From the NCBI GenBank assembly GCA_036405135.1, contig DASWYF010000002.1, forward strand, positions 62,001 to 126,000: 64,000 bases of DNA. The letters run 5' to 3'. Origin of the DNA: Verrucomicrobiia bacterium (GTDB lineage Bacteria > Verrucomicrobiota > Verrucomicrobiia > Limisphaerales > JAEYXS01). The notes below the pieces were generated by a model. It saw only the letters and a program-made list of their open reading frames with translations. It was not told the origin of the DNA and ran no database searches. Positions 10,690 to 15,929 of this stretch are shown here, one piece after another. Positions within the stretch are counted from its first letter, which is position 1, and the number at the start of each line of letters is the position of its first letter. The position numbers and the translations under genes are program-made.

Positions 10690-13600
10690 ATGACAAAGCC
10701 GGGAAATCAATCCAGTCTGAGCCTGTCTTACACCCGGATCAGTGCTTTGCTGGTGATCATACTTGGTGGCGGGGTGTTTTTTGGGTGGCTGCTCCAGAGC
10801 ATAACCATGGTGGCAGTGGTGGCGGGGTTCACTCCGATGCAGCCGAACACAGCGGTTTGTTTCGTCGTGGCCGGAGCGGCGATTCTGGCGGCAGGCAAGG
10901 AGAGGATGCGGTGGACATTGTGGCTGGGGGCAGCTATCGCAATGGTGGGGCTGGCCACCTTGCTTCAATATACGTATGGAGGAAATTTCGGCATCGATCA
11001 GTTCCTGATCAAACCGTTCTATGTGGAGAGGAGTGCGTTTCCCGGACGGATGTCGATGCTCACCTCCATCTGTTTTTTTCTCGCTGGGCTCTCCCTGGTC
11101 ATAAAAGCCAGCAGCCAGCAAAATCCCCGGCTGAGAATAATGCTGGCGATCTGCAACAGTTGTGTGCTTGGGATCGCATCGACCGCCTTTTTTTCTTATC
11201 AGCTTGATGTGGAGGGGTTGCAGGGCTGGCGACGGCAGATCGGGCAGATGGCTTTGCACACATCGATCGGTTTCCTGCTTCTGAGCACGGGAATTTTTTC
11301 TTTGGCCTGGCATCGCACCAAGCAGGAGCAGACGGGCTTGCCGAGCTGGCTGCCATTTCCCGTTGGCATCGGTGCGCTCGCCGCCACGCTGTATGTCTAT
11401 CTGATGGTGTTGTCCTCCCAACAGATGCAGACGGAGCGGAGCACGGCGCTGCAACTGGAGAACCTCCGCGTGCTGCTCCATCATTCCATCGATGAGCGCA
11501 TGGGGGCGCTGAACCGGATGGCCAGGCGCTGGGAGGCGGCCGGAGGGATCGCCGAGGCTGAGTGGGAGAAGGATGCAGCCAATTATGTAGGTGATCTGCC
11601 CGGATTTCAGGCGGTGCAATGGATTGATGCAAGTATGGTGGTGCGGCGGTGTGTGCCGGTGAAGGGAAATGAATCGGTTATCGGATTGAATCTGGGCGAA
11701 AATCCGGCACGTCTGGCAATTTACGAACGTTCGCGGCAGCAGGGCCGGCTTACGTTCACCCCGGCGATCAACCTGATCCAGGGCGGAAGGGGCTTTCTTG
11801 TCCATGTCCCTTTGATGGTGAATGGCCAACCGGATGGCTTCATCGTGGGGGTGTTTCGTTCCCAAGATTTTTTGTCCAGCGTGATCCGGCCGGAACTGGT
11901 GCGGGATCATTCTTTGTTTGTCTATGATGGGGACAAGGAGCTGTATCGTTCACAAAAGGAGAATTTTGGCCCCGGACGTTCACTGGCCAAGCAGGCGAAA
12001 CTGAAACTGCCGGGGTCGGAATGGGACATGGTGCTGGAACCGCTCCGGGTGGACACAGAATCCAAGATGTCCGAATTGGTGCAGTGGATTGGTGCGGGGA
12101 TCGCCTTGCTGCTTTCCGGCATGACCTGGCTGGCGCAGACTGCTTACCGGCGCACAGGCGAGCTGCAAAAGGGTAATGAGCAGCTTTCTGCCGAAGTGCT
12201 GGAACGACGCCGGGTGGAGGAAGAATTGCGCCGGTTGGGCATCTCGCAAAGGGCAGTCCTGGGCAGTGCCAATTATTCGGTCATCTCCACCACCATGGAC
12301 GGGACCATCACCTCCTTCAATGCCGCCGCCGAGAGGATGCTCGGATATGCGGCCGAGGAAGTGGTCGGAAAGGTGAGTCCGGCCATCATTCATCTGGAAG
12401 AGGAAGTGGTGGCGCGGGCGGGGGAACTGGAGAAGGAACTGGGCCGGAAAATCGAGCCGGGATTTGATGTCTTCGTGGCCAAGGCGCGCATGGGGCAAAC
12501 TGAAGAGAGGGAGTGGACGTATGTGCGCAAGGACGGAAGCCGGTTTCCCGTGCTGCTTTCCGTTACCGCCATCCGGGATGAACGGCACGGCACCGTCGGT
12601 TTTCTGGGCATCGCCAGCGACATCACCGAGCGCAAGGAGTCGGAGGAGAAGCTGGCAGATGAAAAGGCGCGCCTTTTCGCTTTCATCGAGCATGCACCGG
12701 CGGCGGTGGCGATGTTTGACCGTGAGATGAGATACATCGCCGCGAGCCGCCGCTGGTTCGTGGATTACGGGCTGAGCGGCCAGTCCATCCTCGGCCGCAG
12801 TCACTACGAGGTGTTCCCCAATGTCGGAGAGAACTGGAAAGATATCCACCGTCATTGTTTGGCGGGGGCGATCGAGCGGAAGGATGATGACGTTTGGCGG
12901 CCACCGGGTTGGGACCATGACCAGCACCTGCGCTGGGAGGTGCGTCCGTGGTTTGATGGCGCTGGTAAAATCGGCGGGGTCATGATGTTCACGCAAGACA
13001 TCACAGCGGATCGCATGCGCGAGCAGGAGCTGGGGCGGATGCGGGATGCGGCGGATGCGGCGAACCAGGCGAAGAGCGAGTTCCTCGCGAATATGAGCCA
13101 TGAAGTGCGCACCCCGATGAACGGTGTCATCGGTATGACCGGACTTCTGCTGGATACACCGCTAACGCTGGAGCAGCGGAATTATGCGGAGACGATCCAG
13201 TTCAGTGCGGAGTCATTGCTGACGGTGATCAATGACATCCTGGATTTCTCGAAGATCGAGGCGGGCAAGCTGGTGTTCGAGACGCTCGATTTCAATCTGC
13301 AGGAGACGGTGGAGGAATCGCTGGAGATTCTGGCGCAACGGGCGCAATCCAAAGGCATCGAACTGGTCGGCTGGCTGGCACCGGAAGTGCCGGTGAATTT
13401 GCGCGGTGATCCGGGGCGCATACGGCAGGTGCTGAACAATCTCTTGAGTAATGCGGTGAAGTTCACTGAGCGGGGTGAAGTGGTGATGAATGTGCGGCTC
13501 ACGAGTGAGACGCAGGATCACGCGGTTCTGCGCTTCGAGGTGAAGGACAGCGGCATCGGCATCTCAGAGGAAGCGCAGAGGCGTTTGTTCCAGGCGTTCT

Positions 13601-15006
13601 CGCAAGCGGACGGTTCGACAACGCGCAAATACGGTGGCACCGGCTTGGGGCTGGCGATCAGCCGGCAATTGGTTGAATTGATGAATGGCGAGATCGGCGT
13701 AACGAGCGAGCCGGGGAAAGGTTCCACGTTCTGGTTCACTGCACGGTTGGAAAAGCAGCAGCAGACCGCGATAAAACTCGTGCCAGTGACATCTCTTATT
13801 CAAGCGGGTGACCGCGTGCTTATTGCGGTGACCAACCCGGCGAACCGCGAGTTTCTGCACAATCAACTGCTGGCGTGGAAGATGAATTCCGTGGCAGTGG
13901 GTACGGGAGAAGAGGCGCTGAAGGCGATACGTGAGAGCTTGCGGAAAGAAGGCCGGTTCAAACTGGCGGTGCTGGATCAAAAGCTGCCGGGCATTGACGG
14001 GGTGGCACTGGCCAGGATCATCCGACAGGAGATCGGTCGTGACGGGCTCAAACTGGTTTTGCTGGAATCTGGAACGGAAGCCGTCAGGCCGCAGGAGATC
14101 GTGGAAGCCGGGATCGACGGCGCTTTACAGAAACCGCTGACGCAGTCACGTATGCTGGATTGTTTTATGACTGTGAGTGCGCAGGCGATGAACCCGCGTT
14201 CGCTCGCGATGGTGCCGGTGGAGGCGGTAGAGACTGTGAGCAACCAGCCGAAGAGAAAGATCAAGATACTGCTGGCAGAGGACAATGCGGTGAACCAGAA
14301 AGTGACGCTGGGACAACTGCGCAAGCTGGGATGCCAGGCGGATTGTGTGGGTAATGGTCTGGAAGTGCTGCAGGCGTTGGAAGTGGTGCCGTATGAGATC
14401 GTGCTGATGGACTGCCAGATGCCGGAGATGGACGGCTTTGCAGCATCGCGCGAGATCCGGCATCGGGGATTGAATGTGCATATCATCGCGTTGACGGCGA
14501 ATGCGATGCAGGGCGATCGTGAGCGTTGCCTGGCGGCGGGGATGAGCGATTACATCACCAAACCGATGAAGCTGGAGGATCTCAAGGCGGCGATCGACCG
14601 CTGGGCTGATCTGCGGCCGCGCAAGGTGACGGGAGACACGGAGACATCACCGACGACCACGGCCGTGTTCAACCTGGAGATATTGCGGACGGCTACCTCA
14701 GACGATCTGGACCTGACGAGCGATCTGGTGGCGGTTTATTTCGATGATGTGGAAAAGACGCTGCCGTTGCTGGAAGCGGCGTGTAAATCGCGAAAGCTGC
14801 CGGAGGTGAATAAGCTGTCACACCGGTTGCGTGGTTCCAGTGCCACCATGGGTTTGGACCGTGTGGCCAAGGTGCTGGAAAAGATCGAGATGAAATCGGA
14901 GACTGGAGCGGTGGAGGCGTTAATGCCGTTGATGGAGGAATTGCGGCGGCAGATGTCTCTGGCGAAGACGGCGCTGGAGAAGCATGTGGAGGGGTTGAAG
15001 AGGTAG
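10690..15006 (+). CDS. Hybrid sensor histidine kinase (MASE-like, CHASE, 2 PAS, HisKA, HATPase, 2 REC, Hpt)
   Basis: A 1438-residue inner membrane phosphorelay protein. Order: about seven membrane helices (residues 10-245), a CHASE-type extracytoplasmic sensor (about 255-420), another helix (about 455-480), two PAS domains (about 515-645 and 660-780), HisKA with His802 in [12 protein letters not shown], HATPase_c ([25 protein letters not shown]), two receivers (about 1040-1155 and 1190-1305) and a C-terminal Hpt with [13 protein letters not shown] (His about 1378). The second receiver is complete (LLAEDNA, LMDCQMP, TKPM). The first lacks the acidic pair ([11 protein letters not shown]) although it keeps an Asp in AVLDQKLPG, so it may be a pseudo-receiver. 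The DsrE-like trio and CheY-like gene lie just upstream. Confidence 0.93.
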
Positions 15007-15035
15007 AGGGCATCTTTCTTGGCCCATGGGGCCAG

Positions 15036-15199
15036 AAGATTCATAGCAGCGGCTTGAAAGCCGCTGTTGGATGGGAAACGGATACGGTCACGTAGTGACC
15101 GAAGAAGTTTATCTTGCGTCGCTAACGCGACGCTCATCCTCAAAAAAGTAACGGCGGCTTAAAAGCCGCCGCTATGAATCTTTCGTGCCTGACGGCACG
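15036..15199. repeat. Composite palindromic element with five hairpins
   Basis: Five perfect hairpins lie head to tail: 15048-15065 (8 bp), 15085-15101 (7 bp), 15116-15133 (7 bp), 15152-15171 (9 bp) and 15184-15199 (6 bp). An outer inverted repeat, AAGATTCATAGC at 15036-15047 and GCTATGAATCTT at 15171-15182, encloses the first four. It occupies most of the gap between the hybrid kinase stop (15006) and the pyrF stop (15216), two convergent genes, so it might also terminate transcription from both sides. It has no coding frame of note. Confidence 0.85.
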
Positions 15200-15215: not shown

Positions 15216-15929
15216 TTAGCCGTTGATGCTTTGCAGAATCTCTTCGGCGGCCTGGCGGGGGTTGGCGGCTTGGTAGATGGGGCGGCCGATGACGAGCCAG
15301 TTGGCTCCGGCAGCCATCGCTTCTTTCGGGCTGAGGACGCGTTTTTGATCGCCTAGGTCTTGGCCAGCACCGCGCACGCCGGGGGTGACGAGCTGGACTT
15401 CGTGGGGGAGGACTTGGCGCAGGAGAGCGATCTCCAAAGGGGAGCAGACGAGGCCGCGCAGGCCGCTTTGGCTGGCGAGGGTCGCGAGGCGTTCCACTTG
15501 TTTGCCGATGTCATCACCCACGCCGGTTTCCGAAAGAGACTGTTGATCCATGCTGGTGAGGACGGTCACGCCGAGGACGAGCGGGGCGGGGATACCGGCT
15601 TGCAGCGCAGTCTTTTGGGCGGATTCCTCGGCGGCCTTCATCATCGCGCTGCCGCCGCAGGTGTGGATGGTGAGCATGTCCACGCCCATGCGCGTGGCGG
15701 AGGCGACGGCCTTCGCGACGGTGTTCGGGATGTCGTGAAATTTCAGGTCCAGGAACACACCGGCACCGGTGGCCTTGATCTCTTTGACGATGGATGGGCC
15801 GGCGGCGGTGAAGAGTTCACTGCCGATCTTGAGCGCGCCCACGGAGCCACGCAGGGCATTGGCCAGTTGGATGGCCTGTTCAGCGGTGGGAACGTCGAGG
15901 GCAACAATGATCGGATTGCGCATGGGCAT
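15216..15929 (-). CDS. pyrF: Orotidine 5'-phosphate decarboxylase
   Basis: A 237-residue TIM-barrel enzyme that converts OMP to UMP, the last step of de novo pyrimidine synthesis. MRNPIIVALDVPTAEQA is the N-terminal substrate strand, and VFLDLKFHDIPNTVAKA carries the Lys and Asp of the DxKxxD catalytic array. LVTPGVRGAG and WLVIGRPIYQA form the phosphate-binding end. Length is normal for the bacterial type. Met1 (15929) and Met3 (15923) are both possible starts. It stands alone. Confidence 0.95.
   Translation of the reverse strand: MPMRNPIIVALDVPTAEQAIQLANALRGSVGALKIGSELFTAAGPSIVKEIKATGAGVFLDLKFHDIPNTVAKAVASATRMGVDMLTIHTCGGSAMMKAAEESAQKTALQAGIPAPLVLGVTVLTSMDQQSLSETGVGDDIGKQVERLATLASQSGLRGLVCSPLEIALLRQVLPHEVQLVTPGVRGAGQDLGDQKRVLSPKEAMAAGANWLVIGRPIYQAANPRQAAEEILQSING

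Follow-up and report, generated by a model that had tools for sequence, protein, structure and literature searches.

A REPIN-like composite hairpin repeat and its probable Y1 transposase partner in a Verrucomicrobiia bacterium

Introduction

A symmetric, hairpin-rich element lying between two genes of a Verrucomicrobiia bacterium is very probably a REPIN-like non-autonomous mobile element, whose partner is a Y1/HUH single-strand transposase encoded in the same genome. A sequence-only reading of the locus had offered a mobile non-autonomous unit as one of three possibilities (next to a bidirectional terminator and a structured RNA), and this possibility is well supported by the dispersed copies of fixed design and spacing, by a transposase gene located between the same ends, and by the presence or absence of the element at an orthologous junction. 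The pairing assigns a repeat to a transposase subclass that had lacked a clear role, and the genome, whose six genes with their ends represent at least five types, provides a natural set for testing the hairpin choice of these enzymes. More generally, intergenic structures rich in hairpins may, in such genomes, turn out to be mobile repeats and not riboregulators.

In what follows, the window is the whole stretch of 64,000 nucleotides that was analysed, and its own genome (G000; 5.81 Mb, in 52 contigs, which are named C1, C2, C20 and so on) is compared with those of two sister species, G001 and G002.

Architecture of the element

The element as proposed consists of two inward-facing half-units (Table 1). 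The 12-mers AAGATTCATAGC and GCTATGAATCTT are exact inverse complements and form the tips of two arms (15036-15068 and 15150-15182), so that the outer inverted repeat described in the sequence-only reading holds. The same reading counted five perfect hairpins; all five stems are indeed perfect, but the count fell short by one, since a palindrome at 15020-15034 had been missed, which mirrors the one at 15184-15199 and completes the symmetry, giving six perfect hairpins within 15020-15199. The position between convergent genes was also correctly seen: a hybrid histidine kinase gene (10690-15006, plus strand) and pyrF, encoding orotidine-5'-phosphate decarboxylase (15216-15929, minus strand), face each other across the element.

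Table 1. Features of the element (window positions; ends of the whole element approximate)
Feature	Position	Strand	Remarks
Whole element as proposed, two inward-facing half-units	15020..15199		supported by family copies, G002 ortholog, G001 absence
Inverted doublet	15036..15182		33-nt arms 88% complementary, 81 nt between arms
Outer palindrome, left (GGCCC type), TGGCCCATGGGGCCA	15020..15034		6-bp stem; like the module left of other copies
Connector AAGATTC, head ATAG (15043-15046) and first base of palindrome B	15036..15047	+	AAGATTCATAGC
Palindrome B, left (AGCGGC type); the REP-like hairpin that follows the head	15047..15066		perfect stem, 9 bp
Inner palindrome, left (GGTCAC type)	15085..15101		perfect stem, 7 bp
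Inner palindrome, right (CGTCGC type)	15116..15133		perfect stem, 7 bp
Palindrome B, right (GGCGGC type)	15152..15171		perfect stem, 9 bp
Minus-strand connector and head (ATAG, appearing as CTAT at 15172-15175 on the plus strand)	15171..15182	-	GCTATGAATCTT
Outer palindrome, right (GTGCC type)	15184..15199		perfect stem, 6 bp

When the window is cut into 306 bins of 209 bp, unaligned to the element, one bin holds five hairpins and all others hold at most three. The segment 15030-15205 folds as RNA with an energy of -91.8 kcal/mol, vs. -50.2 +/- 4.3 kcal/mol for 200 shuffles (z -9.7), and the z-score of the element folded as DNA is -10.5 against shuffles. Together with the covariation of the stems (see below), hairpin density and folding rule out palindromes arisen by chance. 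Nor was a known RNA family found: an Rfam search of the whole window returned a single match, a tRNA, and the element matches no family above the gathering score.

A family of half-units in the genome

A genome-wide search for other copies, which had been set as a test in the sequence-only reading, did find them. With 176 nt of the element as query, 76 matches were obtained in G000 at E <= 10, and at least eight near full-length copies, including that of the window, are present, a lower bound since 40 of the 63 candidates were scored in the full-length search; in pairwise comparison these copies are only 71-82% alike, which makes recent activity unlikely. The recurrent module is the half-unit, in which an outer palindrome, the connector AAGATTC, a head of the form NTAG, palindrome B, a spacer (median 17 nt) and an inner palindrome follow one another. 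The pattern AAGATTCNTAGC occurs exactly 35 times in the genome, vs. 0 occurrences for the reversed control pattern; one of the 35 (C13:147056) lacks surrounding palindromes and probably reflects chance.

A covariance model of the half-unit (R1), built with 38 half-units aligned, gave at least 104 matches at E <= 1 among the 150 scored of 2878 first-look candidates; at least 52 half-units have E < 1e-3, and these fall into 32 loci (gap < 700 bp). Close pairs are strongly oriented: 17 of 20 face inward, three are tandem (2 + 1) and none faces outward, one partial R1 match being counted in the pair at C1. Sixteen of the inward pairs are spaced by 72-95 nt, while the seventeenth is spaced by 573 nt and has a transposase gene in between.

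The head was read at 42 half-units (ATAG 22, TTAG 9, CTAG 9, GTAG 1, ATAA 1), so that 41 of them carry NTAG, a count to be read with the search pattern in mind, which itself favours TAG. The stems are of several types, namely GTGCC, CTCGC, GGCCC and TTCGC in the outer palindrome, mainly GGCGGC, AGCGGC and CACGGG in palindrome B, and CGTCGC, GGTCAC and CGTCAC in the inner one. The types tend to occur in certain combinations, though not strictly, and the most frequent one (GTGCC-GGCGGC-CGTCGC) accounts for 10 of the 42 half-units. One locus stands outside the doublet rule: at C33:16067-17390 (L235), three half-units point in the same direction and have an unusual B stem of the CATGGG type.

Covariation and conservation of the stems

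Over two helices of the half-unit, 93.5% of cells are paired, vs. 75.7% in shuffles, and in 80 cells both partners of the pair are changed, vs. 25 (sd 3) in shuffles; neither value was reached by any of 500 shuffles, which break the relatedness among half-units. The covariation score is 0.448, vs. 0.017-0.147 when the partners are slid by one to three columns. One of the five measures, that of further pair types, was matched by 20 of the 500 shuffles.

Conservation was followed in five orthologous pairs, chosen by hand, in which the segments were delimited on one of the two copies; for one pair this delimitation covered four of the six hairpins. Identity amounts to 360/391 positions in hairpins, 77/88 in connectors and 136/247 in spacers, and the aligned pieces around the five shared loci are about 75-81% identical. 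Among the changed stem pairs seven are broken, one is compensated and one is kept as G-U. Thus, the hairpins are better kept than the DNA around them, either through selection or because copies convert one another. As for the proposal of a structured RNA, the structure stands, with compensatory changes in its stems, but it need not be an RNA, given that Y1 enzymes bind hairpins of single-stranded DNA.

The transposase gene and the other Y1 genes of the genome

The Pfam model Y1_Tnp has eight matches above its cut-off in G000, of which six are strong genes. One of these, an intact Y1/HUH transposase gene (C20:262354-262803), lies between the inward half-units with the wide spacing mentioned above, and its ends have the best and the third-best R1 scores of the genome; no listed R1 match (E <= 1) flanks another Y1 gene of G000. 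The predicted protein of 150 aa contains the motifs DHVH, WQ and YIHGQREHH, the last in place of the class 2 motif Y---NP, which is absent. It scores 97.8 bits against Y1_Tnp and 80.5 bits against the NCBIfam model transpos_IS200 (cut-off 55), while against the model of the REP-associated transposases it reaches 26.6, below the cut-off of 80. Its relatives of solved structure include the ISHp608 transposase. A Y1 gene flanked by its own repeat, as in REPtrons, is found at C20 and also at the locus of its homolog in G001 (see below).

The inverted arms of 33 nt and the nearly constant size of the element would also suit a classical MITE, whose terminal inverted repeats would be recognised by a DDE transposase and whose insertion would duplicate the target site. 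This is extremely unlikely, given that the gene found between such ends, in a search of the genome for Y1 genes, is of the Y1/HUH type, and that the arms are themselves palindromes, as expected for recognition of hairpins in a single strand.

Inverted palindromic ends, differing in sequence from those of the C20 gene, are likewise present at the remaining five strong Y1 genes. Two of the encoded proteins, those of C35 and of C2 (near 163.7 kb), are 93% identical, whereas the other 14 pairs among the six proteins share 38-51%; the GTAG-headed ends at these two loci (C35:55157-55495, L034, and C2:163699-164037, L036) are similar too. This would be expected if such units can copy, and the two genes perhaps derive from a more recent duplication of a gene-bearing unit. 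GTAG is found at some Y1 loci other than that of the C20 gene.

Two further loci deserve mention. At C20:86076-86360 (L037), a class-2-like Y1 gene (NHYH, YVHQNP) has its own inverted palindrome pair on both sides. At C13 (L038; Y1 match 139478-139756), the Y1_Tnp domain is contained in a single open frame between PriA domains (3'BD preceding it; DEAD, zinc ribbon and helicase C following), and GCTGCCGGATTCCAGCCGGCAG-like palindromes are found in the frame on both sides of the domain, as if a transposase-repeat unit had inserted into the replication-restart helicase without breaking its frame.

Y1 genes with inverted flanks in other genomes

Counting the own genome in both surveys, homologs of the C20 protein are present in 87 of 146 genomes of the order, while for the C34 protein a sample of 194 genomes from the phylum gave homologs in 37. 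The flanks of Y1 genes were compared in a non-random set of 75 loci, comprising the six of G000, 29 from the best matches of the C20 protein search and 40 picked by hand from the C20 and C34 searches (seven in the order and 33 outside it, the latter one per genome and not always the best match, with three genomes omitted for a broken or truncated match). Two loci were dropped, L194 (no frame found) and L249 (short flank). In 65 of the remaining 73 Verrucomicrobiota loci the upstream and downstream flanks are mutually inverted beyond all 100 shuffles, the excess being marginal or weak at L178 (41 vs. 39), L204 (34 vs. 33) and L177 (37 vs. 27); L180, L200, L203, L205, L250, L252, L267 and L270 do not exceed their shuffles. 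T[AG]GC is found in 44 of the 65 positive arms, a count without a control of its own. By eye, many arms share one plan, with a palindrome, a short connector, NTAGC or CAGCC, a second palindrome, a spacer and a third palindrome. The 73 proteins are rather uniform: 71 have Y---Q--HH, 72 have WQ, 63 have DH[IV]H, and 59 are 147-151 aa long.

In the Bacteroidetes class around G391, homologs occur in 109 of 198 genomes, and inverted flanks at 12 of the 28 testable loci, which were taken from the best matches (two of 30, L292 and L294, were dropped for a short flank); by eye these are mostly simpler palindromes. At L303 and L306, the flanks have GTCCC-type palindromes and a GGTAGC motif without a B hairpin after it, perhaps a simpler form of the same ends.

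The family in sister species

R1 was also run on 196 genomes of the order, under stricter filters and with 28 candidates scored in each. Among these candidates, strong matches are confined to the three genomes of this genus; weak ones, with E of 2e-5 to 8e-4, occur in six other genera. A scan of genome contigs with the exact pattern gave 25 stretches, two of them from Verrucomicrobia (L069 in G002 and L091 in G001), and the remaining 23, outside Verrucomicrobia, are taken as chance.

The locus of the window has an ortholog in G002, in which the element is present. In G001, about 21 nt separate the two convergent genes and the element is missing; this presence or absence, seen between species, concerns one orthologous junction. 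The window copy may have entered between the histidine kinase gene and pyrF in the G000/G002 lineage, or it may have been lost in G001. Other insertions of the element are common to the species, so that the family is old.

A homolog of the C20 protein with 79% amino acid identity is encoded at G001:C33, also between inward units, in a place different from that of C20: its left flank matches G000:C16, where there are units and no gene, and its right flank matches G000:C22. Conversely, the G001 site orthologous to C20 has kept the right end and measures 224 bp, vs. about 824 bp, which leaves no room for the gene; the alignment is poor on the left side, and orthology here rests on BLAST pieces. 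Either the C20-type gene moved, or different copies were retained in each species; rearrangement also occurred around the G001:C33 gene. In G002, which is 76% complete, only a 43% homolog of the C20 gene was found. As a separate observation, synteny with G000:C16 and G000:C22 breaks at G001:C33 (L214) in the surroundings of the transposase gene and the repeat units, suggesting a rearrangement point marked by these repeats.

The occurrence of units without the gene in the other species, at both transposase sites, and the mapping of the G001:C33 flanks to different G000 contigs, by which the repeats are seen to take part in rearrangement, speak for units that spread only by recombination or duplication, the C20 gene having landed beside pre-existing repeats. 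Such a history is nevertheless very unlikely, because all six strong Y1 genes of G000 have inverted ends of their own, and because the inverted ends at 65 of 73 loci of the phylum form a pattern that chance landing would not give.

Gene context and transcription termination

The gene context of the loci was obtained with a home-made codon-usage gene finder, by which 21 of the 32 loci could be classified and 11 could not. Nine of the 21 are convergent, 11 tandem and one divergent, vs. 7 convergent, 28 tandem and 7 divergent among the 42 gene junctions of the window. No gene was called over any of the 32 loci, a weak result as the finder also missed the C20 transposase gene.

This frequent location between convergent genes, together with the hairpins and connectors being kept above the spacers in the five orthologous pairs, would fit an element maintained mainly as a bidirectional terminator, or as an RNA-stabilising structure between genes, with its mobile origin in the past. 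So would the T-rich tail that follows palindrome B in 10 of 42 half-units, vs. 4.4% of random window positions, and the hairpin with CTTTTTTG that resembles a terminator and lies on the minus strand downstream of pyrF. We consider this unlikely, since 32 of the 42 half-units are devoid of the tail, the connector and head are conserved though no terminator needs them, the same ends flank a transposase gene, and REPs elsewhere have the same location bias (PMC3733652). Transcription termination may instead be a side effect of the position of the element, and it is only as such, with the T-rich tails and the single match on the pyrF side, that the bidirectional terminator of the earlier reading survives, the total of matches in the scan (2) being little above that of the shuffles (mean 0.6, sd 0.9).

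A possible route of spread

The REPIN-like element served by a Y1/HUH enzyme remains the preferred reading, and its route can be outlined by analogy with the IS200/IS605 and RAYT literature. The hairpins would fold while the DNA is in single-stranded form, e.g., on the lagging strand; the transposase would then bind hairpin B with its NTAG head, cut nearby and join the excised piece into a new single-stranded target. The window copy would have been inherited since its entry between the histidine kinase gene and pyrF.

A wider proposal can be advanced only tentatively, and we hold it to be somewhat less probable than its opposite: the Verrucomicrobiota Y1 class, reported to be devoid of REPs, could form a separate system of single-strand transposition, with ends that are arrays of three hairpins (outer, NTAG-headed B and inner) whose stems would be free to change as long as they remain paired, with enzymes reading the head, the hairpin shape and the spacing and not the stem sequence, and with cognate doublets that populate the genomes.

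Comparison with known systems

The element shares several traits with REPINs and REPtrons: its short palindromes are arranged as an inverted doublet facing inward, a tetranucleotide head precedes the hairpin on its 5' side, the position is intergenic, and the cognate Y1 gene stands between copies of the same repeat (PMC3116915; PMC8266576). Unlike a REPIN, it has two further hairpins per half (outer and inner), and its head is mostly ATAG, TTAG or CTAG; the tetranucleotide GT[AG]G at the hairpin foot is not the rule here, with G first in only one of 42 half-units, and for this reason the element is called REPIN-like and is not filed as a REPIN. No change of GTAG is tolerated by the TnpA-REP of E. 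coli, while the enzymes of Stenotrophomonas and Marinomonas tolerate some (PMC8266576). The copy number is low compared with the 430 REP doublets of P. fluorescens SBW25 (PMC3116915). The enzyme also differs, being of the class 1 type (Y---Q), whereas that of REPtrons belongs to class 2 (Y---NP).

Di Nocera 2013 (PMC3733652) describes, besides REPtrons, the TIRtrons, the compound repeats of Pseudomonas and the GTAG repeats of Opitutus terrae. In TIRtrons (TIRYT), as here, a Y1 gene is located between long inverted repeats, some with self-complementary tracts (PMC3733652); 20 of the 26 TIRYT examples are of subclass 2.1 (PMC6006769), unlike the enzymes of this study, which have the signature of subclass 1.2. 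In the compound repeats, units with a degenerate GTAG lie next to unrelated stem-loops, and the half-unit resembles them in joining a degenerate head to another stem-loop (PMC3733652). The repeats of Opitutus terrae, also a verrucomicrobium, are the only such repeats that we found described in this phylum (PMC3733652).

Subclass 1.2 of TnpA-Y1 is characterized by Y---Q--HH, DH[IV]H, WQ and a median length of 148 aa (Quentin 2018; PMC6006769), which fits the C20 protein and the set of 73 proteins, as judged by motifs and length. This subclass is entered with "no" under REP and as occurring mostly in Cyanobacteria and Bacteroidetes (PMC6006769), while the genes described here are from Verrucomicrobiota and have composite REP-like ends; the "no REP" trait does not fit the inverted flanks of the 65 Verrucomicrobiota loci out of 73, and of the 12 out of 28 in the Bacteroidetes class. 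A literature search, with most subscription journals outside its range, gave no report of such repeats with subclass 1.2. Finally, the Y---Q motif, the match to transpos_IS200 above the cut-off and the hairpins beside the gene are shared with IS200/IS605, from which the present system differs by its inverted ends, its many gene-free doublets and its mostly divergent genes.
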